DNA of 64,000 nt from Arachidicoccus sp. (GTDB lineage Bacteria > Bacteroidota > Bacteroidia > Chitinophagales > Chitinophagaceae): positions 1 to 64,000 of the forward strand of contig JAPWKH010000033.1 in NCBI GenBank assembly GCA_028283605.1. The letters run 5' to 3'. The position numbers were made by a program, and so were the translations under genes. This document shows, in pieces, positions 5,247-61,482 of the stretch (position 1 is its first letter; each line of letters starts with the position of its first letter). Under the pieces are notes generated by a model, which did not search any database, had not been told where the DNA came from, and saw only the letters and a list, made by a program, of their open reading frames with translations.

Positions 5247-5411
5247 TCTCTGGTCCTCTTTTAAGGCCAGAGCTAACTTTAAACTGGATTAAATCCCGGG
5301 GGCAACGTCGGATGCTTTGAGCGCAAGATCAGATGGTCTGCACTCAGCGCTCCCACAGACAGCTATTCAAGGCGCGTCTCCGGAATACGCAAACACCCCA
5401 TCACTAACGCA

Positions 5412-9227: not shown

Positions 9228-9308
9228 TAGCAGGGTGTTGAAGAAGTCGCTTGCGGCGCGACTATCGGCATGATTCACTTGGTCCATGCTTAGGTTCGAG
9301 GACGTGCT

Positions 9309-13174: not shown

Positions 13175-13708
13175 CCGGAATGGTCCTCTGTTTGGGGCCC
13201 GACCAGCCGGTCAAGGCAGTCATCGAGCGACATGCGCCATGGATCGAGACGCAGGCCAAATGTATCGTCAAGTTTGTCGCCATTGAGGCACGAATTGGCG
13301 GGCCGTTTCGCCGGGGTCGGATAATCGGCCGTCGTGATCGGATTGACCCGTACCGGTGTACGTCCGCGCGCCTCGGCGCCTTCGAAAATGGCCGTAGCGA
13401 GTTCGTGCCAGGTCGCCTCGCCGTCATTGACGAAATGCATAGGTGCCGCGGAGCGTCGGCTCGAGGCGCATCGCCGTTGACCCGCTGGGCCAGTTCGGTT
13501 TCCGTCTCAGCCTTGTCGACGGCCGTATAGGCGGCAGAGGAAATGATGGCGTCGGGAGCGATCTCCCGCACGATGGCTTCGAGGCTTGGGTTTGTGACAG
13601 GTCGACTTCGGGGCGGCCGATTCGCACGATCTCCAGACCGAGACGATCTCCCTCCATTTGCAGGGCGGTATCGACCTGACCGTTTTTTCCGGTGACAAGA
13701 ATGCGCAT
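13171..13708 (-). pseudogene. rmlD: dTDP-4-dehydrorhamnose reductase RmlD, internally deleted
   Basis: The last step to dTDP-L-rhamnose. The N-terminus (MRILVTGKNGQVDTALQMEG) and the C-terminus (MHFVNDGEATWHELATAIFE, ending [10 protein letters not shown]) are present, but the whole gene spans only 538 bases instead of about 880. Around 13440-13470 the text jumps from the NAD-binding half (VDKAETETELAQRVNGDAPR) to the C-terminal third, so roughly 110-150 codons, including the catalytic YxxxK region, are absent. Frameshifts also occur in the N-terminal half. Unlike the other rml genes, this one cannot be rescued by fixing single bases. Confidence 0.8.
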
Positions 13709-13710
13709 GA

Positions 13711-14771
<1,061 letters not shown>

Positions 14772-15561: not shown

Positions 15562-15671
15562 CGACGTTGCCCTTTGGATTTGATCCCGTTTCGGGTGGCC
15601 AAGAAATGGGGAGCAGGTCAACCAACCGCTCGAGCAAACTCAAGATTGGATAAAGTCAAGGGGCAATGTCG
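15562..15671. mobile_element. 110-bp MITE derived from an IS407-type relative
   Basis: Consists only of the two ends of an element related to the two IS407-type copies. The first 27 bases (CGACGTTGCCCTTTGGATTT onward) match the orfA-side end, and the last 50 bases (CCAACCGCTCGAGC to GGGGCAATGTCG) match the orfB-side end with about six differences. It lies in the opposite orientation to the full copies, and the 1.1 kb interior is missing. It sits between rmlC and the next gene. It could be mobilised by the full-length transposase. Confidence 0.75.
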
Positions 15672-15746
15672 GATAGGTTGATTGTGTGTTTTTTATAAGC
15701 TAGTGATTTTCATGTTTAGTGATTTATTATCTTTTTGGAGGCGAGT

Positions 15747-19898: not shown

Positions 19899-20096
19899 CT
19901 CTGAAATTCCAGTGAAGCCCGAATGTTGCGGTGGCAGGGCAGGCGCGGCTTTCAATGCTGGGAATGTGATCGGGAGAAGGAAATGCTTGCGCATGAGGAC
20001 TAGCATCATGTGGCTGGTATGTAGAAAAAAGTGTGCTGTGTCGTCCGTACAGATGGTTCCATCACGATAGCGCGACAAAATTATAATAGGTTTTAT

Positions 20097-21224
20097 ATGA
20101 AGCTTGGGCTTGTCCATTTCAATCATGAAGACAGAAATAATCTGACTGTATGGCAGGATATCCGTAAGTCGTCTTGGAAGCCGAATTACGGTGATATGTT
20201 GGTTTGCGCCTCGGTAATCAGGCAGGTCGAAGGTGCTTCACAAGGGGCTCGCATCGGCTTTGGCGGTGTTCTACAGACTCAAGTCGATCGTGCGATCGTT
20301 CGCGGGTCCACTTATCTACACGAGGCCTTCGATTTCGAGGCCGCCAACAAGACCCTCGACAGCATAAACGCACCATTGGCTATTGTCGGCCTCGGTGCGC
20401 AAAGCCCGGTCATGGATCCGACTTTTCTTGATGACAACGAAGGCGCAAAAGGATTTATCGCGCGACTGAACGAAAAGTCCGCGAGCATATCGGTGCGTGG
20501 TGCGTTTACCGCTGAAGTCGTAGAGCGGCTCGGCGGGAAAAATATCCGGATCACGGGCTGCCCTTCGTTGTTCTATGCAATGGCCTGCCCCGTGGTTCAG
20601 GTGCCGGAATTGCTCAAGATGCCGCAACGTTCCATGGGCATATCCATCCATTCCGGCCTAATGAAGAATATCTTCTGCCACGCACCGCTCGAGGCGCGCG
20701 AAAAGCACGGCAAAGTTATCGCCTGGGCGATAGAGAACGCTGCGAACGTTTCGATCTTCGAGCAGGGTGTATTGCTGGAATATGACGTTGCCGATCACAC
20801 TCTCAGCTTCGAGGAGCGCCGCAAGGCCGCCGTACAAGTCATCGAACGTATCGGAGCGCAGGAACTTTTTGCGCCAGAAGACTTGATGGCGCGCATGGTG
20901 AGCGTCAAGAGTATCGAAGAATGGTTAGCTAAGGTGCGCGATGTCGATGCAATTATCGGTTTCCGTTTCCACGGCAACATGGTTGCTCTATTACAAGGCA
21001 AGCCCTGTTACTACTATACCTATGATTCGCGTCTGAAGGAGTTTTGCGACGTCTATGGCCTGCCCCACCAGGATGTTACCGGGCCGTGGGTGGACCCCGT
21101 AACGGCTATGGTGGAGTATAACTGGGATGCGGCCAACAAGCGCATGGCCGGGCTGTTCGAGGAAATGAAGACCTTCTATGCAGAAAATGGCTTCGTAACG
21201 ATGTTCGATAGAATTATCGTTTAA
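20097..21224 (+). CDS. Polysaccharide pyruvyl transferase family protein
   Basis: 375 residues from MKLGLVHFNHEDRNNLTVWQ. Typical features of the family are WKPNYGDMLVCASVIRQ (a GD near the N-terminus), APLAIVGLGAQSP, ISVRGAFTAEVVERLG, NIRITGCPSLFY, and the C-terminal VDAIIGFRFHGNMVALLQGK with the conserved RxHG. These enzymes transfer pyruvate ketals, or in some members other groups, to sugars of exopolysaccharides. The gene lies 198 bases after the fused glycosyltransferase in the same direction. Its composition is more GC-rich than the two genes before it, so the cluster may be a mosaic. The gene is intact. Confidence 0.85.
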   Translation: MKLGLVHFNHEDRNNLTVWQDIRKSSWKPNYGDMLVCASVIRQVEGASQGARIGFGGVLQTQVDRAIVRGSTYLHEAFDFEAANKTLDSINAPLAIVGLGAQSPVMDPTFLDDNEGAKGFIARLNEKSASISVRGAFTAEVVERLGGKNIRITGCPSLFYAMACPVVQVPELLKMPQRSMGISIHSGLMKNIFCHAPLEAREKHGKVIAWAIENAANVSIFEQGVLLEYDVADHTLSFEERRKAAVQVIERIGAQELFAPEDLMARMVSVKSIEEWLAKVRDVDAIIGFRFHGNMVALLQGKPCYYYTYDSRLKEFCDVYGLPHQDVTGPWVDPVTAMVEYNWDAANKRMAGLFEEMKTFYAENGFVTMFDRIIV

Positions 21225-21548
21225 TTTCTTCTTAGGCTGTAGTTTGCAGAATTTATAAACTACAAATCTTAGGCGATTATGATGAAATTAAAGCTTTCTA
21301 CCGGAGCTCTTAAATTGCGACGTTGCCCCTTGATGTTATCCAATCTTGAGTTCGCTCGGGCGGTTGGTTTTTCCGTTTTGGATACTGGTGGGAGCGTCGG
21401 TGACCGGCGCGGAGCTGTGCGATGAGCGCAGCGCCAGGTCACTACGACGCGGGTTGAAATTGCGGGCATACTCGGCCGGCGTCAACCAGCCGATCCGGGA
21501 ATGTGGTCGTTGGGTGTTGTAATCCGTCCTCCAGGTTTGAAGTACCGC

Positions 21549-22271
21549 TCAGGCATGAGCCAAAGACGTGAAAAGCGTCTCGTTGAGCAGCTCATCTCTC
21601 AAACGCCCGTTGAAGCTTTCCACAAAGGCGTTCTGGTTGGGCTTGCCCGGTGCGATGTAGTGCCAACCCACCCGGCTGGAATCTGCCCAGGACAGGATGG
21701 CATTGCTGGTGAATTCCGTTCCATTATCGCTGACGATCATCTTGGGTCGGCCCCGCTCAGCAATGATCCTATCGAGTTCGCGCGCGACGCGGCCGCCTGA
21801 CAGCGATGTGTCGACGGTGAGTGTCAGGCATTCCCGTGAACAATCGTCGACCACACACAAGATGCGCAAGCGACGGCCGTCAGTGAGTTGATCCGATACA
21901 AAGTCCAGTGACCAACGCTCGTTCGGCGCCATGGGCAGCAGCATGGGTGAGCGTGTGCCCATGGCACGCTTACGGCCACCGCGGCGCCGCACGGTGAGCT
22001 TCTCCTCCCGATACATTCGGAAGAGCCGTTTGTGGTTCACGACAAAGCCTTCCCGCTTCAAAAGGACGTGGAGGCGGCGATAGCCAAACCGCCGGCGTTC
22101 GGTCGCCATAGAACGCATGCGTTCGCGCAAGGTGCCGTCGTCACTATGCCTGGAGGCATAACGAACCGTCATCCGGCAACATGAAATGACCTGGCACGCC
22201 CGTCGCTCGCTCATCTCGTAGGTGGCTTCAAGATAAGCAACAGCTTCCCGCCGAGCGGCGGGCGCTACCAT
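21549..22271 (-). CDS. IS407-type transposase OrfB with premature stop
   Basis: 240 residues of the IS3-family integrase-core protein. The DDE triad is complete: D123 (WSLDFVSD), D182 (VSDNGTEF) and E218 (NAFVESFNG), with 35 residues between the last two as expected. The frame stops at TGA 21549-21551 (SLAHA-stop), but the next 70 codons are open in the same frame and read AVLQTWRTDYNTQRPHSRIG and WLTPAEYARNFNPRRS, the normal conserved C-terminus, ending at 21336. TGA for CGA (Arg) is a single C-to-T change. Copy 1 has the same TGA. It is made as an OrfAB fusion by -1 frameshifting. Confidence 0.85.
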
Positions 22272-22531
22272 TTTTTTCCAAGCAGGTCTTTCAACGCGAC
22301 ATTGTCCAGCATCGCGTCGGCCAGCATACGCTTCAGCTTGGCGTTCTCATCTTCCAGCGACTTCAGCCGCTTGGCCTCAGATACTTCCATGCCGCCGTAC
22401 TTGGCCTTCCACTTGTAAATGCTGGCGTCGCTCACGCCGTGCTTGCGACACAGATCCGACACCGGAACACCGGTCTCGTGCTCCTTCAAAATCGATATGA
22501 TCTGCTCTTCTGTGAATCGGCTTCGCTTCAT
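22265..22531 (-). CDS. IS407-type OrfA
   Basis: 88 residues, [20 protein letters not shown], with a helix-turn-helix ([20 protein letters not shown]) and a C-terminal leucine-zipper-like coiled coil ([20 protein letters not shown]). It binds the element's ends and supplies the N-terminal part of the OrfAB transposase. It ends LLGKKW-stop, overlapping OrfB by seven bases. Intact here, broken in copy 1. Confidence 0.88.
22271..22277 (-). other. Programmed -1 frameshift site (A7) between OrfA and OrfB
   Basis: Seven As on the minus strand, within GGAAAAAAATGGTAG, just before the OrfA stop. This is the standard slippery position of IS3-family elements, used to make the OrfAB fusion. The same run is present in copy 1. 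Confidence 0.7.
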
Positions 22532-22681
22532 TCTCTGGTCCTCTTTTAAGGCCAGAGCTAACTTTAAACTGGATTAAATCCCGGGGGCAACGTCGCGGTT
22601 TTCTGACGATAGAAGACGATACTGCTGCGACAGGTTGCTGTGACAGTAGTTGACTGCGATATAGGGAGATTGTTTTAAGGT

Positions 22682-22711
22682 CTTGGTTTTGGACGATAAA
22701 TCGTCACCAAG
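22682..22711 (-). terminator. Hairpin downstream of tRNA-Leu
   Basis: CTTGGT (22682-22687) pairs with ACCAAG (22706-22711), with an inner perfect stem GACGAT/ATCGTC (22692-22697 and 22700-22705). It lies nine bases beyond the tRNA 3' end on the transcribed strand. No strong T tract follows, so it may be a terminator or a processing signal. Confidence 0.35.
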
Positions 22712-22719
22712 AAGCCTAA

Positions 22720-22806
<87 letters not shown>

Positions 22807-22940
22807 ACTTGTCTTAGGTGGTAGTCTTCACCGTTACCGATGAAGGCGGCGACCTATAGGGGCAAATTTTTCGCGGGTCAACGATTTTAATGACGGTTTT
22901 TACAAAAGTTTTTAATCACGCTTCAATAATTGTGCAAAAC

Positions 22941-25115
22941 TCAATCATCCGACTTTATCGGCCCCAATTTATAGCTAAGGCCAATATAAAGGTTGGGTCC
23001 GCGGAAAATAACTCGTGTATCGTCGCGCACCTGTACCGTCCGGCTTATATTTCGGTAACGGCCGGAATCAAAGATATTATAACCATTGGTGATCAATTTC
23101 AGGCGTGGAGATAATTGATGGCTGTAGGACAGATTTAACAAAGTATAGCCTGATTGAGTCCCTTGAGCTGAGAGGGTTCGTCCATATGATTGCAAACTTA
23201 GCTGTATATTATCCGGCTTATAGGGTTTGAAGGTAAGGCTAGCCTTGCTTTCATAAGACATGCCGGAATTATGCGTTTCCATTCTCTCGAAGTTGGTTTC
23301 CAGTTCGTTATAAAAAATATCTGCGCTTAAGCTGTAGCTGATCTTTGACGACAGGTTTGCATCCAATGACAAGTCCAGCCCGCCCGCTAGGCCCTTTCCG
23401 GCATTTTCGCGTGTCGTGACCAGAACTGTATCCGAAACGAAATAGACGTAATCCGTCAGCGTGTTTTTACTGCGCCGGTAATAAAGCGTGGCCTCGTAGC
23501 TGAAGGGTCGGGTAGAATGGTTATAACTGGCTTCAAAAGACTGAGTTTGCGATGGCTTGAGATACGGGTTACCTATAAAGATATCCTGGCCGCCTGTATT
23601 GGTGGTCAGAGGATTGAGGTCATTCGCCGTTGGCCGTTCGATCCGTTGGCTGTAACTGAGTTTGATGCCGTTGGCCTCAGAAATATCCCTACTAAGGTAG
23701 AGGCTCGGGCTCCATTGTGTGTCGGAAGTACGGGTGTAGGACTCCAGGCGACTCTGACGTAAGTCAGTTTGCATGTTTTCTACACGTATTCCACCCTGAA
23801 GAGTCCAGTCAAAAACCGGCGCCTCATAAGTCGCATAGGCAGCGCTTAAAGTCTGGTTTATCAAAAAGCGGTCAGTTTGGCTTGTGTTTGTAGTTTCTGC
23901 GCCTGTGGCAATATCGATGTCCAGGGCGTAGTTATAGGATTGATTGCGATTGCTTTCGATATCGAAGCCTGCCGTCCACTGCCGGTCACCAGAGAGGGGA
24001 AGTACGTAATCTCCGCTCACATTGTCTGTTAACTGCCGGTCGTTCCGACTGAGGTCGTAGGCCCTGACTAGTGCCTGGCTATCCGGGTCATAAACCCGGT
24101 AATTGCGCTGGCTGTAGGGATCGACCTCTTCATGGCGCCAGCTTATATTAAAGCTTTCTCCCTCCTTAAGTCCCTTATGCTTATAGGTCAGGATCAGGGA
24201 GGCTGTATCCTGGTTTTCGGGCCCGGATGAACGCGTAATCGTGTCATCACTCAGTTGGCCCTCAGCATTATAAATTTTGATGCGATCTTCAATGTGACGG
24301 GTGAAGCTGCGTTGCGTAGCTTGCCCCGTCAGGCTCAGATTATCCTTGTCTGAAAGAGCATATGACAGGGCGGCATCCAGGGTGACCATGCGAACATGAT
24401 TATGGACCTGATAGTCTTCATGCATCAGATTTTGCGTATTGCCATCGCTGTCGAAGTGAGTTCGGTCGGCATGGCTGATCATCAGGCGCCCGTCTTCGCG
24501 CAGACTGAGCCCGCCATTCAGGCTGAGCTTGCCCAGATTCTGACTGCCGCTAACAGATGCATTGTAATGCCCGCTTTCTCCGGCATTTAGCGTTAGCTCG
24601 CCGGTCCCGCTTCGCTGTTGCGATTGCTTTGTTACTATGTTGATTATGGTGGCGCTGTCGGAACGGAACTGGGCGCCAGGATTGGTCACGACCTCAATCT
24701 TGCTGATTGTATTTGCCATCATGGATTGCAGGCTGTTTGCGCGGTTGCTGCCCGTAAGCGCCATTACCGGTTTGCCATCCACCAGTATCTGAACCGCCCC
24801 TTGGCCGCGCACCGTGACATTTCCATCCGGCGTGGCATTGACTGACGGCAGGGTGTTGAGCACATCGGCGACCGTGCCCGATGACGTCTGAAGGCTACCC
24901 TTCAGGTCATAGACCGTACGATCAGCCTTATAGACAACCGGAGGCGTTTGGCCGGTGACGATGATTGTAGTCGTGGCTGTATCCGTTTCGGCTGGCAGGG
25001 TTTCCCTGGCTTCAGCTTTGGGCTGGTCCTGCAGAACATGTCCCTGAACGGCCGTCGTGATGAACAGTGCCGAGACTGTAAAACCGCCTGAAAGTCCGAT
25101 TATACGCGGCGCCAT
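22941..25115 (-). CDS. TonB-dependent outer-membrane receptor
   Basis: 724 residues from MAPRIIGLSGG; GGAGGAGTG directly before the ATG at 25115 fixes the start. A signal peptide with hydrophobic core (FTVSALFITTAVQG) is followed by a plug domain (residues about 60-160: TIIVTGQTPPVVYKADRTVY, VADVLNTLPSVNATPDGNVT, VRGQGAVQILVDGKPV) and a 22-strand barrel of the outer-membrane beta-barrel family related to OMP_b-brl_3 (LKLSYSQRIERPTANDLNPL, IFIGNPYLKPSQTQSFEASY). It imports an unknown substrate across the outer membrane using TonB energy. The final residues (LYIGLSYKLGPIKSDD) do not end in Phe but extend slightly beyond. The gene is intact and isolated. Confidence 0.88.
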   Translation of the reverse strand: MAPRIIGLSGGFTVSALFITTAVQGHVLQDQPKAEARETLPAETDTATTTIIVTGQTPPVVYKADRTVYDLKGSLQTSSGTVADVLNTLPSVNATPDGNVTVRGQGAVQILVDGKPVMALTGSNRANSLQSMMANTISKIEVVTNPGAQFRSDSATIINIVTKQSQQRSGTGELTLNAGESGHYNASVSGSQNLGKLSLNGGLSLREDGRLMISHADRTHFDSDGNTQNLMHEDYQVHNHVRMVTLDAALSYALSDKDNLSLTGQATQRSFTRHIEDRIKIYNAEGQLSDDTITRSSGPENQDTASLILTYKHKGLKEGESFNISWRHEEVDPYSQRNYRVYDPDSQALVRAYDLSRNDRQLTDNVSGDYVLPLSGDRQWTAGFDIESNRNQSYNYALDIDIATGAETTNTSQTDRFLINQTLSAAYATYEAPVFDWTLQGGIRVENMQTDLRQSRLESYTRTSDTQWSPSLYLSRDISEANGIKLSYSQRIERPTANDLNPLTTNTGGQDIFIGNPYLKPSQTQSFEASYNHSTRPFSYEATLYYRRSKNTLTDYVYFVSDTVLVTTRENAGKGLAGGLDLSLDANLSSKISYSLSADIFYNELETNFERMETHNSGMSYESKASLTFKPYKPDNIQLSLQSYGRTLSAQGTQSGYTLLNLSYSHQLSPRLKLITNGYNIFDSGRYRNISRTVQVRDDTRVIFRGPNLYIGLSYKLGPIKSDD

Positions 25116-25410
25116 CACTCCTCCGTTTTGACCTCGCGCGAACCCCGTCACCGGACCGTTGATTCGTAATGCCCGTTTTCGAATACGCAAACAATGGGAA
25201 TTCCCTTGAAAGGCAAGTTTCGCTAAAACAGTTTAAGATGTGTTGTTAATATGCAAAATTTCAACCAAAGCGGCAATTTCTTACCGCCACATGGCGATTT
25301 TTGCGTTTACTGAAATTTTATAATTTCGAACACCTTGCCTATGGGTTTTTTGCACGTGTGGTTCTTTTGTATCATTTGACTGGGGAAGTTCCAAAAAAAT
25401 GGAGGCGGCA

Positions 25411-26673
25411 ATGCTGCAAACCTACCTGGGTGCCTTGATCCAACAGGGCTCACTCACGGTCCGCATCAATCCGAACAAGACCTATCATTTCGGCACCCCC
25501 ATACCGGAACGGCCGGATCTCGATGTTGCCATCTGGATTAACAGCCCATGGACCGCCTTCAAGATCGGCCTGCACCCCTATCTCTATTTCGGCGAGGCGG
25601 TCATGGAGGCCGATCTGATTGTCGAAAAGGGCAGTTTATGGAACCTGATCGAGCTGATCGGTCTCAATCTGCGCCATGCCCCTGATCGCGGTTGGCTGTC
25701 GCGCCTGCTGAATGGCATAAAACGCTTCATGCCGGCCCATTCGCGGACAGCATCGCGCGCCAATGTGGCGCACCATTATGATCTGTCTGAAAAGCTCTAT
25801 CGTCTGTTTCTCGACGAGGACATGCAGTATTCCTGCGCGTATTTCCAATGTTCGCAGGCCTCTCTGGAAGAAGCGCAGATCGCCAAGAAGGACCACATCG
25901 CCGACAAGCTCTATCTCTCGCCCGGCCAGAGTATACTGGATATCGGCTGTGGCTGGGGCGGCATGGCCCTGCACCTGGCTCAGCAGGCCGGGGTCAATGT
26001 CACCGGCGTGACGCTTTCGACCGAACAACTGGCCGTGGCCGAGCAGCGTGCTCTGGCGCCGAGCGTCAATGCTCGCGTGCGCTTTGAGCTTTGCGACTAT
26101 CGTGAGGTGACAGGCCTGTTCGACCGCATTGTCAGCGTCGGTATGTTCGAACATGTCGGGCAGGCCGGTTTCGACGGCTATTTCCAGACCGTAGCCGAGC
26201 GGCTGAAGGACGACGGTGTGGCCCTGATTCACACCATCGGCCGTCGTGGCAAGACCGGCGGGCGTTCGGCCTGGCTCAACAAATACATCTTCCCCGGCGG
26301 CTATATTCCCAGTTTATCGGAAATAACAGATTCGGTGGAGAAATCCGGTCTTTTCATCACTGATATCGAACCCCTGCGCCTGCATTATGCCGAAACCTGC
26401 CGGCACTGGCGCGAGCGCTTCCTGGCGCACCGTACGGAGATCGCCGCCCTCTATGACGAGCGCTTCTGCCGCATGTGGGAATTCTATCTTTGCTATTGCG
26501 AACTGGGTTTCCGCTATGGCGACCTGATGGTCTTTCAGGTGCAATTGGCCAAGCGGCTGGATACCCTGCCGATCACGCGCGACTACATGATGCCGCAGGC
26601 TTCAGCCCGCGTCGCCGAAGACGCCAGCGGCGAAGCGCTCAAAAGCCTTGCCCGTCTCGACCAGACGGCCTGA
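25411..26673 (+). CDS. cfa: Cyclopropane-fatty-acyl-phospholipid synthase
   Basis: 420 residues from MLQTYLGALIQQG; GGAGG five bases before the ATG at 25411 favours it over the ATG at 25399. It transfers a methylene group from S-adenosylmethionine to cis double bonds of membrane phospholipids. Visible are the N-terminal lipid-binding region (WTAFKIGLHPYLYFGEAVME), then AHHYDLSEKLYRLFLDEDMQ with YSCAYF, the SAM-binding LDIGCGWGGMALHLA (about residue 177), FDRIVSVGMFEHVG, and the C-terminal HYAETCRHWRERF and YLCYCELGFRYGDLMVFQ. Intact, with no partner genes beside it. Confidence 0.92.
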   Translation: MLQTYLGALIQQGSLTVRINPNKTYHFGTPIPERPDLDVAIWINSPWTAFKIGLHPYLYFGEAVMEADLIVEKGSLWNLIELIGLNLRHAPDRGWLSRLLNGIKRFMPAHSRTASRANVAHHYDLSEKLYRLFLDEDMQYSCAYFQCSQASLEEAQIAKKDHIADKLYLSPGQSILDIGCGWGGMALHLAQQAGVNVTGVTLSTEQLAVAEQRALAPSVNARVRFELCDYREVTGLFDRIVSVGMFEHVGQAGFDGYFQTVAERLKDDGVALIHTIGRRGKTGGRSAWLNKYIFPGGYIPSLSEITDSVEKSGLFITDIEPLRLHYAETCRHWRERFLAHRTEIAALYDERFCRMWEFYLCYCELGFRYGDLMVFQVQLAKRLDTLPITRDYMMPQASARVAEDASGEALKSLARLDQTA

Positions 26674-26850
26674 GGGGGCGAAATGCGGGCGAAACAGCGC
26701 CACGGTCCGGCGCGGATTGAAATCGCGCATTGGAATCCGCACCACATCTGACGCGCTGTAGTACTCCGGCACTGTGAGGCCAGCCCCGGCCTCGACCATG
26801 CTGAGCGCGCGTTCATCCTGCGCCGTTCGGTAGACCAGTGGCGGCCTTCA
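26602..26850 (-). pseudogene. LysR-type regulator, C-terminal remnant
   Basis: The minus strand reads RTAQDERALSMVEAGAGLTV, then PEYYSASDVVRIPMRDFNPR and RTVALFRPHFAPSGRLVETG, the end of a LysR substrate-binding domain (MVEAGLGITVLPEY, then VRIPIRDFNPRRTIAL in relatives). There is no DNA-binding domain and the N-terminal 230 or so residues are gone. Its 3' end overlaps the last codons of cfa. In intact genomes such a regulator could have controlled the neighbouring leucine-degradation genes, but that is inference. Confidence 0.6.
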
Positions 26851-26872
26851 AGGTGCCGATCCATGTACTATG

Positions 26873-27025
26873 AGGTGCAAGGGGCATCCCTGGTATGCCT
26901 CGGCCCGCCTGTGGGATGACGGTGTCATCGACCCGACCGATACGCGCCGTGTACTCGGCCTGGGACTTTCCGTCGCATTGAATGCCTACGTTTTACCCAC
27001 CAGTTTTGGTGTCTTCAGGATTTAA
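26873..27025 (+). pseudogene. mccB: Methylcrotonyl-CoA carboxylase beta subunit, C-terminal remnant
   Basis: The plus strand gives [18 protein letters not shown], then [17 protein letters not shown] and finally TSFGVFRI-stop, the last 50 residues of the carboxyltransferase subunit (relatives end in [17 protein letters not shown]...ETRFGVFRM). The other 480 or so residues are missing. It stands directly before the liuC-type gene, the normal order in leucine/isovalerate degradation operons, so a larger operon was cut here. Confidence 0.75.
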
Positions 27026-27044
27026 CCCCCGAAAGGAAAGCCTC

Positions 27045-27812
27045 ATGCAGGATATCACCGTAGATGCCGACGAACGCGGCGTGGTCCGCGTCACCCTTAA
27101 CCGTCCCGCCATTCACAATGCTTTCAATGAGGGTATGATCGGCGAACTGACCGACGCCTTCGCCGACCTCGGCAATCAGGACGGTGTGCGCGTCATCGTT
27201 CTGGCCGGAAATGGCGCCAGCTTCAGCGCCGGGGCCGATCTCAACTGGATGAAGCGCGCCGCCGAACAGGACGAATATGCCAATCGTGAAGACGCACAGG
27301 CCCTGGCGAAGCTGTTTGACACAATCAACACCTGCCCGAAGCCGGTGATCGGGCTGGTGCAGGGCGCAGCCTTGGGCGGCGGGGTCGGACTCATCGCCTG
27401 CTGTGATGTGGTGATCGCACAGCCGGAGGTCAGCTTCGGCATGACCGAAGTACGGCTGGGCCTGATCCCGGCGGTCATATCGCCCTTCGTCATTGCCAAG
27501 ATCGGCCAGTCCGCTGCGCGGCGCTACATGCTGACCGGCGAGCGCTTTACCGCTGCCGAGGCCCTGCGCATCGGTCTGGTTCACGAAGTCAGCCCGGCGC
27601 TTGAGGCCGAGGGCGCGAAGATCGTCGAAGCCCTGCTGGCCGGCGGTCCGGAGGCCATAAGCGACGCCAAGGATCTGATAAACGACATCGCAAAGATGGA
27701 CGATAAGGCTGAACAGACCGCGTATCGCATCGCCACGCGCCGTGCTTCGGATGAAGGCCGCGAGGGCGTGACCGCCTTTCTCGCCAAGCGCAAACCCGGC
27801 TGGTTGACCTGA
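27045..27812 (+). CDS. liuC: Enoyl-CoA hydratase, probably methylglutaconyl-CoA hydratase
   Basis: 255 residues from [20 protein letters not shown], with AAAGGAAAG before the ATG at 27045. Crotonase fold: oxyanion-hole segments [13 protein letters not shown] (about residue 62) and [19 protein letters not shown] (about 105), and the conserved [19 protein letters not shown] (about 130). Its position between the ends of mccB and mccA is that of LiuC, which hydrates 3-methylglutaconyl-CoA in leucine degradation. It overlaps the next start codon (TGATG), so the genes were cotranscribed. The gene is intact although both partners are truncated. Confidence 0.85.
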
Positions 27813-27937
27813 TGTTTAAGCGCATCCTCATCGCCAATCGCGGGGAAATCGCTCGCCGCATTCTCCGCACCTGTAAACGGATGAATGTGGAGACCGTCGC
27901 GGTCTATTGCGATGTCGATTTGCTGCGCCATGGGTGA
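27812..27937 (+). pseudogene. mccA: Methylcrotonyl-CoA carboxylase biotin-carboxylase subunit, N-terminal remnant
   Basis: [20 protein letters not shown], then [16 protein letters not shown] and a stop after 41 codons. This is the exact start of a biotin carboxylase/acyl-CoA carboxylase alpha chain (relatives continue ...HVREADEAV with about 620 more residues). It breaks off near 27925, and unrelated sequence leading to the receptor gene follows. Truncation could be a real deletion or a wrong join. Confidence 0.8.
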
Positions 27938-28057
27938 GGCGCAGTCCTGTCCCTAACAGGCCGCAATGCCATCAAGCCAAAAAAGACGCGAAGCCTTCTT
28001 CGAAAAATGCCGAAAAATGCTCCGCGTCCACAGAAGCTGTGTTGTGTCTGTCAGCTC

Positions 28058-30313
28058 TTAGAAGAACTTGTAGGTGACGCCGAACAGATAGCTGGAACCG
28101 TATTTTTCATAGCGCAGGATATGATCCTGCTGGCCCTTGCCCTAATAGGTGTAGAAGGGCTCGTTGCTCAGGTTCGACCCAGAGACGTTGAGCGTCAGCC
28201 CATTGAGCGGACCGTCATTGAAGCTGTAGCTGATCTGGGCATCGATCACGCTTTCGGAATGCACCCAGGTATTACTCAGGCTGTTGGTGTAGTCAGGCAC
28301 TTCACCAAGGAAGTCACCGCGATAGCGGTTGCTGATCCGCGCCGAGAAGCCATGCTTTTCGTAATGGACCGTGGTGTTCATGACCTTCTTGGAAAGACCC
28401 GGCACGTCATAGGCATTGGTGCCCGACGGGTTGATGGAACTGTCGTTGAACGAGGCGCTCCAGATCACGCCGAAGCCGTCGAGCCACGGTGTCAGCAGTT
28501 CGCCCGGCACAGAGACCGTCAGTTCGACGCCCTTGATATAGCCGCCATGGCCATTGGCCTGGGCCGTCGTCGTGCCGATACGGTTGGCGTCGGCATTGGC
28601 ACAGACCCACTGGCCGTAATAGGGGCTCTCTTCGTCATTGTCGATGACCTTAATCGTATGGGCCGAGTCGGAGTAACAGGCGCTGGACAGGGCGACACCG
28701 GTATAGTCCTTGGTCAGGGTCTGGCTGTAGATGAAGGTCGTCAGATCCTTGTAGAAACCGGCAACCGACACGTAACCCTTGCGCCCGAAGTAATGCTCGA
28801 TCGACAGGTCATAGTTGTTGGCCTTCCATGGCTTCAGGCCCGGGTTGCCACCGCTGCCGCTCCAGTAATAGGCCGTGGTCCCGTTGGTATAGGGCGACGT
28901 ATTGACCGTCGAGGAAGTGAAGTAGCCGTCCTTGTACATGGCCAGGGCGTCATAGGACACCATGCCGCCGTTGTTGCCCAGGAAGTCGGCATCGGTGGTG
29001 CCGGTGCGATACTTTTCCGGAATGACCGCTTGCGAGGCGCCATCCGGCAGACCGAGATAGCCTTCCTTGCCGTCCTTGTCCTTGGTGTGCTCGGTATGGT
29101 CATAACCCACCAATATATCGCTGAAGAAGCCCGCATGGAACTTGCGTGTCGCGGCCAGTTTGATCAACTTGATTTAGTCGACCACATGCGGCACCCCCAC
29201 ATAACCGGCGCGCGACGAGGCCAGCGGACCACCCCATCCGTCCGGATCGGTCAGGAAGATGGTGTCGAAGTCGGAATAATCGATCTGGCTTGAGATATGG
29301 TCAGGCCGAACCCTTCCTGCGAGAAGTTGACCGTGTCGGTCGCACCCGAACCGCTGGCGCCGGTGCCGGCGGTCGATTCGACCTGGATATCGGTGCGGTC
29401 GGCCTTGGAAGTCGACAGGTCGGCCGTCAGCGACCACTCGTCGTTCACATCGTAGACCGTGTTCCAGCCGAAGGCATCCAGCTTGGACTTGCGCTGGTTG
29501 ACATAGTTTTCCATCACGGTCTTGACGCCGGTAAAGGTACCGCTGGTGACGAATTCGTCATCGGTCGTATAGCCTTCTTCCAGGTTGTTGGCGCCCCAGG
29601 CCAGCAGATATTCGAGGCGGGCGATACGCTGCAGTTCGTCGAAATCCGAATGATAGGTATCGAAGGTCATGCGCAGATTGTCGGTCGGGCGATATTCCAG
29701 CACGCCCATATAGCCATCGCGCTTCAGCACCGACGAATCGACCGCATCCTTTTCCCCGCCGGTGATCAGCAGGCTCTGATCCGCCGTCGTATCGCAGGCC
29801 GAACAGGTCGGATAGCCCCAGGATTCCTTTTTCAGGGTCTGATAGGGTGACTCGTTATGGGCATAGCCCAGGGCAATCCCGACCTTCTTATTGAAGAACT
29901 GATCGATATAGGTCGCCGAGAAACGGTTGCCTGTATTCTTCATTCCGCCGATGCGGGCGTCTTCGCTGTTCTGTTCGCCGCGCGCACTGACGACGAGGGC
30001 GCGCTTGCCATAGGCCAGCGGACGCACGGTCTGCAGTGCCGGCAATACCCTGATCCGTCATGCCGGCGTTCGGTGTCTTGTAGACCAGGACCTGCGAAAT
30101 CAGTTCGGAAGGATACTGGTCGAACTCGACGGAACGGTTGTCATTGGTCACGACCACGGTGGTCGTTTCATCGGCGGACGTCGTGGTCGTGGTGGCAGCC
30201 GCATCCTGGGCCATGACGGGGACGGCGAAAGCGCAGGCCGTTACAATGGCCACGGTCGCGCCACAGGTCAGCAGACGCGTACGCGTCGCGATTTGACCCT
30301 TGGAATTACGCAT
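28058..30313 (-). pseudogene. TonB-dependent receptor (Caulobacter type), disrupted
   Basis: Starts at the ATG at 30313 behind CAGGAGGAACCTA. A signal peptide (LTCGATVAIVTACAFAVPVM then AQDAA) leads to TTTVVVT, but the text then jumps straight to NDNRSVEFDQYPSELISQVL, so about 90 residues of the plug domain are missing. The rest of the TonB-Xanth-Caul type barrel follows with frameshifts near 30045 and 29305 and in-frame stops TAA at 29174-29176 and TAG at 28142-28144. After the last stop the frame continues GKGQQDHILRYEKYGSSYLF and GVTYKFF, a normal receptor end, to 28058. Substrate unknown; related receptors import oligosaccharides. Confidence 0.8.
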
Positions 30314-30419
30314 TAGGTTCCTCCTGGTGTTGCGTTTCAATCTTCAACGCGTGTCCTGTTCTTGTGTGCAGGACAATCGCCTCAGACATCTCAACCCTCA
30401 CGACACTCTTTTGGCGTCT

Positions 30420-30445
30420 TCACAGGAGGATTTTCTGAAAGATAA
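30420..30445. other. Junction between alphaproteobacterial and Bacteroidota sequence
   Basis: Left of here the text is the promoter region of the receptor gene (GC-rich). Right of here it is AT-rich tamB coding sequence in mid-gene. The switch lies around TCACAGGAGGATTTTCTG. No repeat, integrase, IS or tRNA marks it. Confidence 0.7.
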
Positions 30446-33400
30446 TTTTGATTTTTCCTACATTGGTTTGGAAAATGCCGTGATTAATATCAACCGGAAA
30501 GATTCTGTTTGGAATTATCAGTTTATAATAGATCATTTTGCTTCGAACAAAAAAGACACAACTACAAGCAATACAAAACTTAATTTGAAAAAAATAGATA
30601 TTCAGAAATTAAGATTTGCGCAAAACGAATTATGGACAGGGCAAAAAATGAGCCTCTCACTTGGAAGTTTGCTGCTTGATGCAGATAAGATTAATTTCAA
30701 TACACTTGATTTTAAAATCCAAAATGCTGGAAATGGATAAGCCGTTTTTCAGTATGATGAACTTTAAAGGATTGCAGCCGCAAAAGAAAATCATTCATTC
30801 AAAACAAGAAAAGAAAGGCAAAAGCCTGTATTTCAACAGCGCAGGAATACGTATATCTTTGGATAGCCTGCAATTGATCAACGGCGATTTTGTAATGATG
30901 CAGCACGACAGCAGCTATAAACCTTTTCCTGGTTTTGATGCGGAGGATCTGCAATTTCATCATCTTAATTTATCTGCCGGGAAATTCTTGTTTAATCAGG
31001 ATACAATTACTGCAAAACTGGCCTTAAGCACAGTGGAACGAAGCGGCTTGGATATTAAGAATTTATCGGCCGACTTCAGGCTTACGCCGAAAATAATGGA
31101 ATTTAATCATTTGGATTTACGTACTGCAAACAGTCATTTGCCGCACGACTAGACTGTCACAATGAAGTTCGGCGATTTTTCCAAAGACAGCAGAGCAACT
31201 TTACGGACAAAGTAATATTGGATGCGCACTTCAATGATGCACAGGTAAACAGTGATGATATCGCTTACTTCGCGCCCGATTTAAAAACATGGAAAAAGAG
31301 ATGGAATGTTTCAGGGAAAATATTTGGGAACCATTGCAGATTTTAAAGTGGCCAATATGTCGGTAAAAGACCAGGACGGGATGATTGCTTCAGGAGAATT
31401 GACAATGCGCGGTTTGCCGGAAATTGATACAACGCTGATAGATGTTGAAAGCCTGAATGCAAATGTAACGTACAGGCAATTGTTGCCTATCGTTCCGCAA
31501 TTGAAAGAAGTTACCAATCCAAACCTTTCCGCTTTAGGCAATGGCCATTTCAAAGGTTATTTTAAAGGAACAATCCACAGCTTTGCACTCGGTGGAAATA
31601 TGCATACGGCTTTAGGCGCAGACTCGCTGCAATTAACTATGACGCTGCCTGAAAAAGGAAATCCTACATACAAAGGAAGCATTGCTACCAATCAGTTTAA
31701 TCTCGGCAAATTTATCGGCAATGACAGTACGCTCGGCAACATTGCTTTCAAAGAGAAAATTTGATGGCGAAGGGTTTGATATGAATTCAATGAAAACCTC
31801 TGTAAGCGGTCATTTCGATCGGTTTGAGAGCCATGGGATATGGATATTCTAATATTGATGTGGACGGAGTAATCCAGAAAAAATTATTCAGCGGAGATCT
31901 TAAAATAGACGATTCAAGCGCAAGCCTTATTTCAAATGTTGCGATTGATTTCAATGGCGATGTTCCTCATTTCAATGTGTTGGGCGATTTGCAAAACCTT
32001 GACATGCAACGTGTAAAACTTGTAAAAGGGAGAATGGTTTTAACCGCGTTATTCGACCTGAATTTTTATGGAGATAATATTGATAATTTTATCGGTACTG
32101 CGAAGATATTGAATGTATCTTTAGTCAAAGATTCTTCAAAAATCAGCTTTGATTCTTTAACTGTAAGCGCTTCGGTAGATTCACAGCAATTAAAGATTTT
32201 GTCTGTCATCAACAATTCGTTTGGGTATACATAAAGGGCAATATTCGATATTAGACCTGCCTACAACGTTTCAAATTTTTTTAAGCAATTACTATCCGGC
32301 AGTATTTAGAAGCCTTCTCAAACGCCGAAAGACCAGCACTTCACGCTCGAACTGCATACAAAGGATTTTGATAATTACGCAAATATTATCGATTAAATCT
32401 TAAACGGCTTGGACAGCGTTACGGTAATGGGCGCGATCAATTACCGAAGACTCGGGTATCTTCTACTCTGGATGCATCGGTTCCGTATGTGAAATACAAA
32501 AATTACAAACTTCAGAATACATTGATTGAAGGAAACGGCAACCTTTCAAAAATTGATTTTACGGGGTAAGGTAGAGAAGTTTTATTTGAGCGACAGTTCA
32601 TATTTTCCTAATACTACTTTTGAGCATCAGTTCCAATAACAACATATCTTCCATTCAATTAAATACAGGTTCGAATAATGCCATAAACGAAATTAGCCTC
32701 GCTGCAAACGTGTATAATCTTGACGATGGTGTGAAAATAAATTTTCTTCCGTCGTATTTTATTCTGAATGATAAGAAATGGAATCTGGAGAAAGAGGGCG
32801 AATTGGTAATAAGAAAAAATTTCACCTCTGCTAAAAATGTAAAATTTTCGCAAGGCTTTCAGGAAATTACGGTAGAAACATCGAAAGGTATCCGAGATAC
32901 AACCATGAATAATCTGATCGTAAAATTAAACAAAGTAAACATCGGCGATTTCACTTCGGTTTTCGTTCCGTCGTTACATGTCGAAGGCCTGGTAAGCGGA
33001 AGAGTTACGATGATCAATTTCTACGGCGATTTCAGTATTGCGGATAGTATGAAGTTTGAGCAGCTTCGTTACAACGGAGATTCTATCGGCAATGTAAATC
33101 TGAAAGGTTTTTATTCCGGTAAAACGAAAAAAATATACGCTTCACTGCCGCTTCGGAAAACGATAAATATGATTTTGATGTAAAAGGAAATTATTCGCTG
33201 AACGATTCATTGGAAAACCCAATGGACATTGTTATCAACATGAAGCAAATGCGCATCAATATTCTTAACCAATTTTTGAATACCATTTTGGAAATATTGA
33301 CGGCTACGGAACAGGGAAAATTGAAATCGTTGGCAAACCGAAAAGTTTCCGCTTATTGGGAAATGCTGCATTATCGCACGCAGCAATGGATGTGCTTTAT

Positions 33401-33543
33401 ACAAAAGTGCGCTACTACATAGATACCGCAAACTTTACATTTACCGATACCAGTATCAATTTGGAACGTTTACGCTTAAAGATAAATACGGCAATACGGG
33501 AAAACTTCTCAGAGGCACTTTATATCATCGTAGCTTTAATGAT
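30434..33543 (+). pseudogene. TamB/DUF490 family protein, 5' part, many frameshifts
   Basis: TamB-like proteins are very large inner-membrane-anchored periplasmic proteins that help lipid transport or outer-membrane protein assembly. Repeating beta-helical AsmA-like text is readable in pieces in all three frames: NFDFSYIGLENAVININRKD, then GIRISLDSLQLINGDFVMMQ (30,661-31,152), VSVKDQDG-like text (31,306-31,764), DVDGVIQKKLFSGDLKIDDS (31,824-32,234) and VEGLVSGRVTMINFYGDFSI (32,620-33,183). At least six frame changes are needed to join them. The N-terminal membrane anchor and first 150 or so codons are lost at the contig junction. The piece joins 33,544-34,971 as one gene. Confidence 0.75.
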
Positions 33544-34971
33544 ATGAGCTTTGATTTTGATGTAAAATCGGATAAGATATTAGCGGTAGATACGAAACCG
33601 GCAGACAATCCTTTATTTTATGGTTATGCAGTTGCGAAGGCTGAGTTTATTTTGAAAGGAACGCAAACCAATATGCAAATGACCATTTCTGCTGCACCGG
33701 CAGATAAATCAATTGTTAATATAGTTACTCCTAATACGACTGCTACCGGAACAGCAAATTTTATTGTATTTAAAAAGTACGGAAAGCCAGTTAAGGATAG
33801 CAGCGCGCTGCAAAATGCAAATATAGATTTGCAACTAAACCTTACGGCAAATAACAAAGCAACCATTAATGTAATTCTTGATCCTTTAACAGGAGATGCG
33901 ATTAGCGCTACCGGAAACGGAAGTCTTAAAATTCATGTGCCGCCTACAGGCGATATTACCATGAAAGGAAAATATAATATTGAAAGCGGTAAATACGATT
34001 TCAGTTTTCAAAGCCTTATTAAAAAGCCTTTTTATTTTCAGGATGGGGATGATAATTACATTGAATGGACCGGAGACGCGGCCAATGCAAATCTTCATAT
34101 AGATGCACGTTACACGGCGCAGCAAGTAAGTTTAAGCTCTTTGTTAACTGCACAATCAAGCATTTCTTCCGCCACAGGAATGAACGATGTAAGAGGCTAT
34201 CGCGGCGATGTGTATGTAATTGTACAATTGCGCGGCAAACTGCTAAAGCCGGATATCGGATTTAAGTTTGATTTTCCCGTTGGAAGTTCCGTAGAAACCA
34301 ATCCGGATTTTAGAGTGCTGCTCCAGAAAATGACAAGTGATGAAAATGAAATGCTGAAACAAGTTGCGTATCTGATAGCCTTTAATTCTTTCGCACCTTA
34401 CGGGCAATCCGGCGGCAACTCTGCAAACTTTACCACAACCGGCGTAAACACAATTTCTTCTTTGATTACAAATGAATTGAATAATATTTTCTCAAATGCA
34501 CTTACCAAAATTACCGGAGATAAAGGCTTAACATTTGAGGTAGGAACGCAATCTTACAGCAGTTCAGAAATATTGGGACAAGGCGGCTCAGACAAATGGG
34601 ACCGGCAAAACGTAAATTTCAGGCTCATGCAAAGTATTGCGAACGATAAAATAGTTTTTGTGATTGGCGGCAACTTTGATTTTGGAGTGAATGGCGGACA
34701 ATCCATATCGCAATCAGGCGGCGCCTTTTCTCCGGATCTATCTGTTCAATTTATTCTTTCACGTAACAGGCGTTTACGTGCGATTGTTTTTAGCCGCAGC
34801 AGTTTGAGCGGCATTGGGGCTTCTATAGGCAGGCAAAACAGATATGGTGTAAGTATTTCCTATACCAAAGATTTTGAAAAGCTTTTCGGAGGAAAGGAAA
34901 AGTTCCGGGAAATAAAAACTGCCGACAGCACAATGAGCATCAGTACAAGCGAGGACTATGATGTGAATTAA
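33544..34971 (+). CDS. TamB/DUF490 family protein, C-terminal part
   Basis: 475 codons open without a break, MSFDFDVKSDKILAVDTKPA to STSEDYDVN. The DUF490 hallmarks are present: YGYAVAKAEFILKGTQTNMQ, GNGSLKIHVPPTGDITMKGK, YNIESGKYDFSFQSLIKKPF, then IEWTGDAANANLHIDARYTA and the C-terminal barrel-facing region LAYLIAFN-like KQVAYLIAFNSFAP, with EVGTQSYSSSEIL and VFVIGGNFDFGVNG. This is the C-terminal half of the gene broken upstream; its first ATG is internal and not the real start. In Bacteroidota this gene commonly stands alone or near an outer-membrane assembly gene. Confidence 0.85.
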   Translation: MSFDFDVKSDKILAVDTKPADNPLFYGYAVAKAEFILKGTQTNMQMTISAAPADKSIVNIVTPNTTATGTANFIVFKKYGKPVKDSSALQNANIDLQLNLTANNKATINVILDPLTGDAISATGNGSLKIHVPPTGDITMKGKYNIESGKYDFSFQSLIKKPFYFQDGDDNYIEWTGDAANANLHIDARYTAQQVSLSSLLTAQSSISSATGMNDVRGYRGDVYVIVQLRGKLLKPDIGFKFDFPVGSSVETNPDFRVLLQKMTSDENEMLKQVAYLIAFNSFAPYGQSGGNSANFTTTGVNTISSLITNELNNIFSNALTKITGDKGLTFEVGTQSYSSSEILGQGGSDKWDRQNVNFRLMQSIANDKIVFVIGGNFDFGVNGGQSISQSGGAFSPDLSVQFILSRNRRLRAIVFSRSSLSGIGASIGRQNRYGVSISYTKDFEKLFGGKEKFREIKTADSTMSISTSEDYDVN

Positions 34972-38116: not shown

Positions 38117-41100
38117 TTAATGGTTAGTATCTTCTTTGCCTTGTGTATCGGCATGTTTCACATCAATCTTTCGGTAAGACCATCTGAAAATCAGTGGAAA
38201 TACCAATAAAGAAAATACCATTGCACAAAGAATGCCGCCTATTACAACACGAGCCAAAGGCCTCGAACTTTCGGAACCGATTCCCGTAGAAATTGCAGCG
38301 GGTAATAATCCGATCGCCGCCATTAACGATGTCATCACAACAGGGCGAACCAGTGATTCCACACCTGTTTTTATAGATGTATATAATGGATTGCTATGCC
38401 GTTTATAAGCTTCCATGTTTTGTTTAAATGCAGTAATCAACAGCACGCCTTCTAAAATACATATACCAAATAGCGCTATAAAACCTATCCCCGCAGATAT
38501 GCTGAAATTTGTTCCTGTAATCAATAAAGCGCCAATGCCGCCGACTACAGCAAACGGAACGTTGGTAAATACAAGACCCGCATCTTTAAAATTGCCGAAC
38601 ATCACAAATAGTAACAAGAATATCAATAATAAACTGATCGGTACAACTTGCGCCAAACGTTTTTGCGCTCTTTGTTGGTTTTCAAAATCGCCTTGCCATA
38701 CCATGTTATAGCCTTTCTTTAAATGAATGGCTTTGGCAACTTTAGCCTGCGCTTCTGCAATAGCGCTTCCCATATCCCGGCCGCGAATAGAAAATTTAAC
38801 CGCAGAATATCTCTGATTATCATCTCTGAATATAAGGCAAGGCCCTGTCTTGTACACGATATCGGCAATTTCTTTTATAGGCACTTGCGAGCCGTTCATG
38901 GATGGCACCAACAGATTTCCGATATCATCCGAACTCTTTCTGAACTCTTCGGGAAAGCGGATTCTTATATCAAATTTTTTAATGCCTTCGTATAATTGCG
39001 TTGCAGCTTTACCACCAATGGCCATTTCAATCGCGGCATTTGCATCTGCGGTGTTTACGCCATATTGCGCCATTTTGTTTTGATCGAGATTAATGTCAAG
39101 TTCGGGCTGTCCCAAATTTTTAATCACGCCCAAATCTGTAAATCCACGAACAGTTTTTAATTGATCGTATATTTTGTTACACTGATCTTCCATATAATTC
39201 AAAGAATCACCGAACACTTTCACGACAATAGAACCTTTAACGCCCGATACGGCTTCTTCTACATTATCCATAATCGGTTGAGAAAAGTTCAGATCCGCAC
39301 CCGGCACAATAGACAGAGCCTTTTGCATTTGATCTATCAATTCATCTTTTGTAATATGTCTTTTCCAATCTTCTTTCTGGTACAGCGCTACATCAAATTC
39401 TATATTATAGAAACCGGTAACATCGGTGCCGTCATCAGGGCGGCCATTTTGAGAAATCACACGTGTAACTTCCGGAAAGGTGGCTATAATATGCCGCATT
39501 TGATTGGCGATTTGTACGGATCTTTTTAAATCTATGCTGTACGGCAAGGATGCACGAACGTACAACGAGCCTTCGTTTAATTCAGGTAAAAATTCACTTC
39601 CCAAAAATTTAAATGAGTAGAACCCGATAATTACGAAAATGCCGGCGCCCAATAATACCAATGGCCTTCTGCGGTAATTGAAAGTAAATACCCCCATGAT
39701 AATTTTCGTGAAGAAAATGATGATCGGGTTATGCTTTTCCCTTACATTCTTCTTCAATAAAATGCTTACCAATACAGGTACTAACGTTAAAGTAAATATC
39801 AATGCGCCTAATAATGCAAAGCCCAATGTCCATGCCAGCGGCGAGAACATTTTACCTTCTACTTTTTGAAAAGAAAAGATGGGTAATAATGCAGTAATGA
39901 TTATTAATTTGGAAAAGAAGATTGCTTTGCCTAATTCAGCGCCTTTATTTTTCAGTATACCCAATTTTGCCCTTTTATTAAACCGTTCCATTCCCAATCC
40001 ATGTGCCTGAGCATCCAAGAGTACAAATAATCCCTCAACCATGACGACAGCGCCGTCAATGATTATACCGAAGTCAATTGCGCCGAGCGATAATAAATTT
40101 GCCGACATACCTTTCAGCTTCAGGCATATAAATGCAAACAACAATGCCAATGGAATAATAATGGATACTATTAATGTTGTGCGCCAGTTAAACATAAACA
40201 ACGATACAATCAATGTAACGAGTATAATGCCTTCCGTTAAGTTGTGTAATACTGTGTGTGTGGAATAATTTACCAGATCCCGCCTGTCGTAAAACGGCAC
40301 AATCTTTACATCCGGCGGCAGTATTTTTGAATTTAATTTGGCTATTTTATCTTGTAAAGCAGCAATTACTTTATCCGAATTTTCTCCTCTTCTCATTAAT
40401 ACAATTCCTTCAATGGCATCAGGGTTATCAACATATTGCCTTACTTTTCCAGTATCTACTGCATTAGTACGGCCTACGGCACCCAAGCGTGGCAGGTTGG
40501 ATATAGATACAGTTGCCACATCTTTTACTAATACAGGCATTCCTTTAACTGTTTCAATAAGAATATTATTTATCCCGTTGATATTGCCCAGTAATCCGAT
40601 GCCTCGCACTACATAAGCCTGATCGTTTTTTTCTATGATATCGCCACCGATATTAATGTTGCTTTTAGCCACGGCATTATAAACATCCAATGGCGAAATG
40701 CCTCTGTCGCTAAGCTTTCTCGGATCTACCTGAATTTCGTAAGTCTTTACCATGCCGCCGAAACTCACAATATCTGCAATGCCGGGAACCGCGCGCAATT
40801 CTCTGTCTACCGACCAGTCCTGAATGGTTTTTAAATCGCGCGGAGTACGGGTTTTGCTTTCCAAAGTATATCTGTAAATTTCACCTGTGGGGCCTGTTGG
40901 CGGCTGTACATTCAGGCTGGCGCTTTCCGGAATATCCGCATTGGCCAATAAATTATTTACCTGTATTCGCGCATAGTCATCTGTAACATCGTCATCGAAA
41001 ACTATATTCACAACCGATAATCCGAATATGCTTGTAGATCGTAAACTTGCTTTTTTCTGCACCGGATTCATGGCTATTTCGAGCGGAATGGTTACAAATT

Positions 41101-41296
41101 TTTCTACTTCTTCCGCACTGCGGCCCGGCCATTGCGTAATGATCTGCACCGTTGTATTTGTAACATCGGGAAAGGCTTCGATAGGCATTCCTTTGAAAGT
41201 AACGACACCCCATATTGCCAGCAAAATGGTGGCAAAGAATATCATGTACTTATTCTTTAAAGAGAATGCGAGTATCTTTTTTAATACTTTATTCAT
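38117..41296 (-). CDS. Heavy-metal efflux RND transporter (CzcA type)
   Basis: 1,059 residues, full length for the inner-membrane pump of a tripartite exporter. Twelve membrane segments in the usual 1+5+1+5 pattern. In TM4 the heavy-metal signature DFGIIIDGAVVMVE has D408, D414 and E421 in the arrangement known from CzcA/CnrA (HME1-like), pointing to divalent ions such as Co, Zn, Cd or Ni rather than the copper/silver CusA type. The periplasmic pore domains are present (MPIEAFPDVTNTTVQIITQW, WPGRSAEEVEKFVTIPLE). It stands last in a minus-strand operon after the outer-membrane and adaptor genes. The gap to the adaptor is 150 bases. Intact. Confidence 0.93.
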   Translation of the reverse strand: MNKVLKKILAFSLKNKYMIFFATILLAIWGVVTFKGMPIEAFPDVTNTTVQIITQWPGRSAEEVEKFVTIPLEIAMNPVQKKASLRSTSIFGLSVVNIVFDDDVTDDYARIQVNNLLANADIPESASLNVQPPTGPTGEIYRYTLESKTRTPRDLKTIQDWSVDRELRAVPGIADIVSFGGMVKTYEIQVDPRKLSDRGISPLDVYNAVAKSNINIGGDIIEKNDQAYVVRGIGLLGNINGINNILIETVKGMPVLVKDVATVSISNLPRLGAVGRTNAVDTGKVRQYVDNPDAIEGIVLMRRGENSDKVIAALQDKIAKLNSKILPPDVKIVPFYDRRDLVNYSTHTVLHNLTEGIILVTLIVSLFMFNWRTTLIVSIIIPLALLFAFICLKLKGMSANLLSLGAIDFGIIIDGAVVMVEGLFVLLDAQAHGLGMERFNKRAKLGILKNKGAELGKAIFFSKLIIITALLPIFSFQKVEGKMFSPLAWTLGFALLGALIFTLTLVPVLVSILLKKNVREKHNPIIIFFTKIIMGVFTFNYRRRPLVLLGAGIFVIIGFYSFKFLGSEFLPELNEGSLYVRASLPYSIDLKRSVQIANQMRHIIATFPEVTRVISQNGRPDDGTDVTGFYNIEFDVALYQKEDWKRHITKDELIDQMQKALSIVPGADLNFSQPIMDNVEEAVSGVKGSIVVKVFGDSLNYMEDQCNKIYDQLKTVRGFTDLGVIKNLGQPELDINLDQNKMAQYGVNTADANAAIEMAIGGKAATQLYEGIKKFDIRIRFPEEFRKSSDDIGNLLVPSMNGSQVPIKEIADIVYKTGPCLIFRDDNQRYSAVKFSIRGRDMGSAIAEAQAKVAKAIHLKKGYNMVWQGDFENQQRAQKRLAQVVPISLLLIFLLLFVMFGNFKDAGLVFTNVPFAVVGGIGALLITGTNFSISAGIGFIALFGICILEGVLLITAFKQNMEAYKRHSNPLYTSIKTGVESLVRPVVMTSLMAAIGLLPAAISTGIGSESSRPLARVVIGGILCAMVFSLLVFPLIFRWSYRKIDVKHADTQGKEDTNH

Positions 41297-58996: not shown

Positions 58997-59014
58997 AGCT
59001 GACATTTCATAATG

Positions 59015-59022
59015 CAAATATA
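59015..59022 (-). promoter_or_regulatory. -7 promoter element (TATATTTG) upstream of rhaT
   Basis: TAnnTTTGC box 19 bases before the rhaT ATG at 58996, with TTGAT about 20 bases further upstream as a weak -33 match. The same bases occur in the duplicated copy upstream of the chimeric gene (about 61,429-61,436). It implies that rhaT and the genes after it can be transcribed independently of the GH43 gene. Confidence 0.45.
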
Positions 59023-61410: not shown

Positions 61411-61482
61411 AGCTGACATTTCATAATGCAAATATAAACGCATGTTTGTTATCAAGTATCCTGCGCTATCCTGATTATTATT

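Follow-up and report, generated by a model that had tools for sequence, protein, structure and literature searches.

An Asticcacaulis-like segment joined to Bacteroidota DNA inside a tamB gene of an Arachidicoccus assembly, almost certainly by an assembly artefact

The stretch of DNA analysed here (the window, 64,000 bases) begins at base 1 of contig C10 and makes up the first 64,000 bases of that contig, one of 35 in a 3.59-Mb assembly of an Arachidicoccus species. Its left part carries housekeeping genes (dnaK, gcrA, a tRNA-Leu), an rml cluster, a gene for a cyclopropane-synthase-type (CMAS) protein and TonB-dependent receptor genes. Its right part opens with a tamB gene that lacks its start and goes on to a gene for an AcrB-type protein and a transposase element. 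Between the two lies a sharp point at which two taxonomic origins meet, as seen in GC content, tetranucleotides and both DNA and protein similarity (Table 1).

Table 1 Coordinates of the join and of the features on either side of it (window positions)
Feature	Positions	Strand	Basis or remarks
Foreign segment, Asticcacaulis-like (Caulobacteraceae)	1-30,419		CMAS protein, DNA similarity, tetranucleotides
TonB-dependent receptor gene, frameshifted	28,064-30,313	-	Pfam; comparison with the 955-codon receptor frame of G056
Join	30,420-30,430		11 bases attributed to neither genome; alignments with G056, G049, G029 and C6
Native Bacteroidota chromosome	30,431-64,000		continues in C10 (394,837 bases); AcrB-type protein hits; tetranucleotides
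tamB without its first ~80-97 codons	30,431-34,971	+	frame of G001; PF04357 on 33,544-34,971
Overlap with contig C6:5548-1566 (minus)	30,431-34,416	+	96% identical

Tested within 20,001-44,000, the maximum-likelihood change-point in GC content lies at ~30,430, with a fall from 55.3% to 37.5%. Bins of 2 kb range from 45% to 65% GC left of 30,001 and from 34% to 41% from 32,001 on, whilst 500-base bins left of the join span 37%-67%. DNA similarity to Asticcacaulis stops at 30,409 (genomes G056 and G049) or at 30,419 (G029, G035 and G055), past which the G056, G049 and G029 sequences diverge from the window; contig C6 of this assembly and the Bacteroidota relatives become similar to the window no earlier than 30,431-30,438. 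Tetranucleotide profiles give the same division. The six 5-kb bins of 1-30,000, together with 25,401-30,420, correlate at 0.74-0.87 with Asticcacaulis (G056/G049) and at 0.41-0.69 with C10:64-104 kb. For the seven bins from 30,001 on, the correlation is 0.78-0.87 with that same part of C10 and 0.86-0.96 with window 35-64 kb, a stretch of which six of the seven are themselves a part. Correlations of these right-hand bins with a 16-kb stretch of the same-genus genome G001 (0.54-0.75) are hardly better than those with Asticcacaulis (0.57-0.75); the measure parts the two halves, therefore, but alone does not place the right one.

No direct or inverted repeat of at least 20 bases was found at the join in a search of 1-32,000, nor does the window contain any Ns. 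No integrase, att site or IS element was seen at the edge, and the single Pfam match among five ORFs scanned (28,007-30,740) was to a TonB receptor only. The original prediction, that two genomes are joined in mid-gene at 30,400-30,460, is thus confirmed nearly to the base by the GC change-point, the limits of similarity and the tetranucleotides, and the GC and tetranucleotide profiles it had proposed as a check do separate the halves at the join. Its claim that no repeat or mobile element marks the spot stands for repeats of the length searched; that everything to the left is GC-rich was too strong, given the range of the 500-base bins.

DnaK, GcrA and receptors were expected on the left and all are present, the receptors being of the TonB type. 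The segment had been called Caulobacter-like; its nearest named relative is Asticcacaulis, of the Caulobacteraceae. The CMAS protein (25,399-26,673) shares 79% identity with its counterpart in Asticcacaulis sp. AC466, the other 79 of the 80 loci retained being at 57% or less. All 25 Asticcacaulis genomes have a match to window 20,000-34,500 and none has one past 30,419 among the matches listed (best 12 candidates per genome). Against G056 and G049 the tRNA-Leu region is ~90% identical, 25,400-27,919 is 82-85% identical and 30,191-30,409, next to the join, ~88%. The receptor gene nearest the join, with a start codon (read from the sequence) ~106 bases to the left of it, has two frameshifts and two stops in 30,193-28,064, the part right of 30,193 being outside the alignment.

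Damage of this kind is not confined to the join, since frameshift-dense sequence is also found far off at 12.3-14.8 kb, and the quality of the left segment varies from place to place. Three genes of the rml cluster (12,321-14,771), which we take to be rfbA, rfbD and rfbB from gene order and best fit, have 14 frameshifts against G056. Elsewhere on the left there are two in gcrA, one in dnaK, one at CMAS (just outside the ORF) and none in the adjacent rmlC or the hydratase gene, and long intact ORFs lie between 15.7 and 27.8 kb.

Nor is the left segment one collinear stretch of an Asticcacaulis chromosome, an idea that we considered and rejected. In G049, G056, G055 and G029 its blocks (dnaK, gcrA, the CMAS-receptor block and the rml cluster) are scattered, being separated by more than 100 kb or placed on different contigs. 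Between the blocks sit a transposase element (9228-10,729) and two IS-like copies (4029-5310 and 21,309-22,595). The segment may itself be a patchwork, and both real rearrangement and repeat-driven misjoins are possible sources of the scattered order. The two IS-like copies form a 1.28-kb repeat, 98.7% identical, one end of which recurs inverted at 15,620-15,674. Compared with G056, G049 and G029, ~2.2 kb (at 26,840-26,844) and ~10.3 kb (at 27,919-28,070) are absent from the window, by either real deletion or further misjoins. The absent DNA includes, in G056, carboxyl transferase, biotin carboxylase, acyl-CoA dehydrogenase and HMGL-like genes, and its loss leaves an enoyl-CoA hydratase gene orphaned in the window.

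The gene cut at the join is indeed tamB. The window copy aligns from residue 98 of the G001 frame (1604 codons, stop to stop) and, measured from the first start codon given for C6, begins ~80 codons in, so the missing part amounts to ~80-97 codons and not to the 150 or so first supposed. Four of the five same-genus genomes examined (G001, G002, G004 and G005) have tamB uncut, as a single stop-to-stop frame of 1595-1613 codons; it was not found in a 12-kb stretch taken from the fifth, G003. Relative to G001, the window copy has 14 frameshifts in 30,720-33,459 and none in 33,460-34,941.

The DNA that follows is native. Nine of 28 Bacteroidota relatives have a match to window 28,000-34,500, each starting at 30,431 or later, and none of the 28 has a match left of the join (best 10 candidates per genome). 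Among plasmid records, the AcrB-type protein (38,117-41,296) has its five best hits in Hymenobacter, Parabacteroides, Emticicia, Spirosoma and Persicobacter, all of them Bacteroidota. This native part also holds a direct repeat of 606 bases (58,451-59,056 and 60,865-61,470, 94.9% identical) and a DDE_3 transposase element (61,493-62,389), copies of which, ~98% identical, lie less than 4 kb from the starts of C19 and C34.

The start that the window copy of tamB lacks is carried by contig C6 (17,005 bases) and is followed there by further genes. On this reading, the sequence that truly belongs to the left of window base 30,431 is C6 from base 5549 onward. The genes flanking tamB are ordered differently in C6 and in relatives: a protein that we take for a thioesterase precedes tamB in C6, its gene is on the other side of tamB in G002, G004 and G005, and it was not found in the stretch of G001. 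Against G001, the tamB of C6 has three frameshifts over 4.35 kb. The opposite end of C6 consists of 1.56 kb of GC-rich, low-complexity sequence with long poly-C, ATC, AC and AAT runs, which has no other strong match in its own genome and whose best match, a weak one, is to Pseudomonas phage phi3 (68% over 327 bases). The two contigs thus share 4 kb and each leaves the overlap, at opposite ends, for unrelated DNA.

Within the overlap, C6 and C10 differ by 131 substitutions and 22 indels. Of these substitutions, 112 fall inside two frames of C6, 70 of them at third positions and 59 synonymous. Pure sequencing error was rejected as the source of the differences on account of this richness in third positions, from which it follows that strain variation contributes. 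The two frames are not alike: the one farther from the join has 44 of 64 substitutions at third positions (41 synonymous, 21 not, two stops), the one nearer to it 26 of 48 (18 synonymous, 30 not), and on these counts the nearer frame appears less strain-like. C10 and C6 may come from two strains, an origin that would leave a strain-specific insertion formally open.

The join at C10 has counterparts elsewhere in the assembly. All 70 ends of the 35 contigs were examined for GC, and 11 of them switched from ~35-38% to 49-69%: the starts of C6 and C10, the ends of C9, C16 and C31, and both start and end of C13, C18 and C25. The starts of C23 (44-50%), C21 (~45%) and C4 and the end of C20 (both 44%) were excluded from this count as ambiguous. 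Foreign origin is shown by similarity at the C10 start and the C18 end only, and by fused frames at the C18 start and the C25 start. In the first of these fused frames (909 codons, C18:12,097-14,826, break at 13,154) a periplasmic binding protein runs into a TonB barrel; in the second (557 codons, C25:5575-7248, break at 6,464) a prolyl oligopeptidase N-domain runs into a transketolase; in both, the domain borders match the GC breaks. Contigs C16 and C5 repeat the geometry of C10 and C6, C5:1-2595 overlapping C16:17,528-20,121 at 99.2% identity, with C16 GC-rich from ~20,140 and C5 of native GC.

A single source for all the GC-rich ends was considered and rejected. At the C18 end, a block of 2.25 kb matches Caulobacter sp. 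AP07 at 93% identity and five Asticcacaulis genomes at 67-70%, and the C9 end has no such match. When compared with seven Caulobacteraceae genomes, the latter gives two short matches only, of 168 and 49 bases, and it encodes a FecR_C domain, which is typical of Bacteroidota; for both reasons it may derive from another member of the Bacteroidota or be a native island. At C9 10,229-13,190 a lantibiotic-dehydratase-type gene lies in two frames at the change in GC, which may mark an island or a chimera.

Taken together, these results leave little doubt that the join at 30,420-30,430 arose as an artefact of assembly, whatever the route. The cut gene continues elsewhere in the same assembly, in C6; the join is absent from relatives on both sides (28 Bacteroidota and 25 Asticcacaulis genomes, among the matches listed); and comparable switches recur, by GC, at other contig ends. 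A chimera is by far the likeliest reading because the switch falls in mid-gene, an uncut alternative exists in the assembly, the foreign DNA runs to the end of the contig and similar switches, of more than one source, are found elsewhere. What speaks against it are the partly strain-like differences in the C6/C10 overlap, a gene order beside tamB in C6 that relatives do not share, the failure to find tamB in the stretch of G003 and the frameshift-dense sequence far from the join. The original prediction had named chimeric assembly as the simplest reading, and the continuation in C6, the uncut tamB of relatives, the lack of the join, among the matches listed, in relatives on either side and the other contig ends all support it.

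In outline, two organisms would have been sequenced together, one a member of the Bacteroidota (genome ~3.6 Mb) and the other Asticcacaulis-like, and at a weakly covered spot in the tamB gene of the former the assembler would have extended the contig with DNA of the latter. The route would most likely be one or a few chimeric long reads; we infer the use of long reads, chimeric reads as the cause and low coverage at the join. Chimeric long reads are our best guess in view of the many indels next to the join and the low-complexity runs in C6, and this route, taken by itself, is probable.

Part of the near-certainty that the join is an artefact belongs to a route with no chimeric read, in which a scaffolding or graph step misjoined two correct contigs. 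The long intact ORFs at 15.7-27.8 kb are what a proper contig would contain, but the lack of Ns in the window and of a shared repeat at the join tells against a misjoin, and the many frameshifts just right of the join give that stretch the look of read sequence that was weakly corrected; we regard this route as unlikely. Real recent transfer, in which one Bacteroidota strain has 30 kb or more of Asticcacaulis DNA inserted in tamB and C6 represents a strain lacking it, is very improbable: the third-position-rich, partly strain-like overlap and the IS-like repeats and transposase of the left segment would suit it, but the join has no repeat of at least 20 bases and the closest IS-like copy stops at 22,595, 7.8 kb short of it, the contig never returns to Bacteroidota DNA before its first base, the segment holds dnaK, gcrA and a tRNA-Leu, and ten further contig ends turn GC-richer as well, with DNA of more than one source. 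To combine such an insertion with frequent exchange between phyla, as an account of the other GC-rich ends, is just as improbable.

The join is of no consequence as biology, but it serves as a warning. The values listed for the assembly are 98.9% completeness and 1.3% contamination, yet ~100 kb at its 11 deviating ends (a sum taken from the break positions, with foreign origin shown for a part) is atypical. Two of the breaks, in C18 and C25, make false multi-domain frames for anyone mining the genome, and analyses of gene transfer, domain fusion or gene neighbourhood in this genome should omit the affected contig ends.

Beside known systems, the locus resembles a genomic island or horizontally acquired segment in having DNA of foreign composition and origin next to native DNA. 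It differs in that no repeat or IS lies at its edge, no second edge is seen, housekeeping genes lie inside it and an uncut tamB allele is present on another contig of the same assembly. It is also like the inter-genome chimeric contigs of (long-read) metagenome assemblies, in which the genome switches inside one contig. According to passages of the viralFlye paper (PMC8862349), metaFlye may link different linear viruses into one chimeric contig via chimeric reads, and 81 potentially chimeric contigs are counted there in the metaFlye pipeline. Unlike those viral chimeras, the case described here involves bacterial chromosomes and affects several contig ends of one genome.
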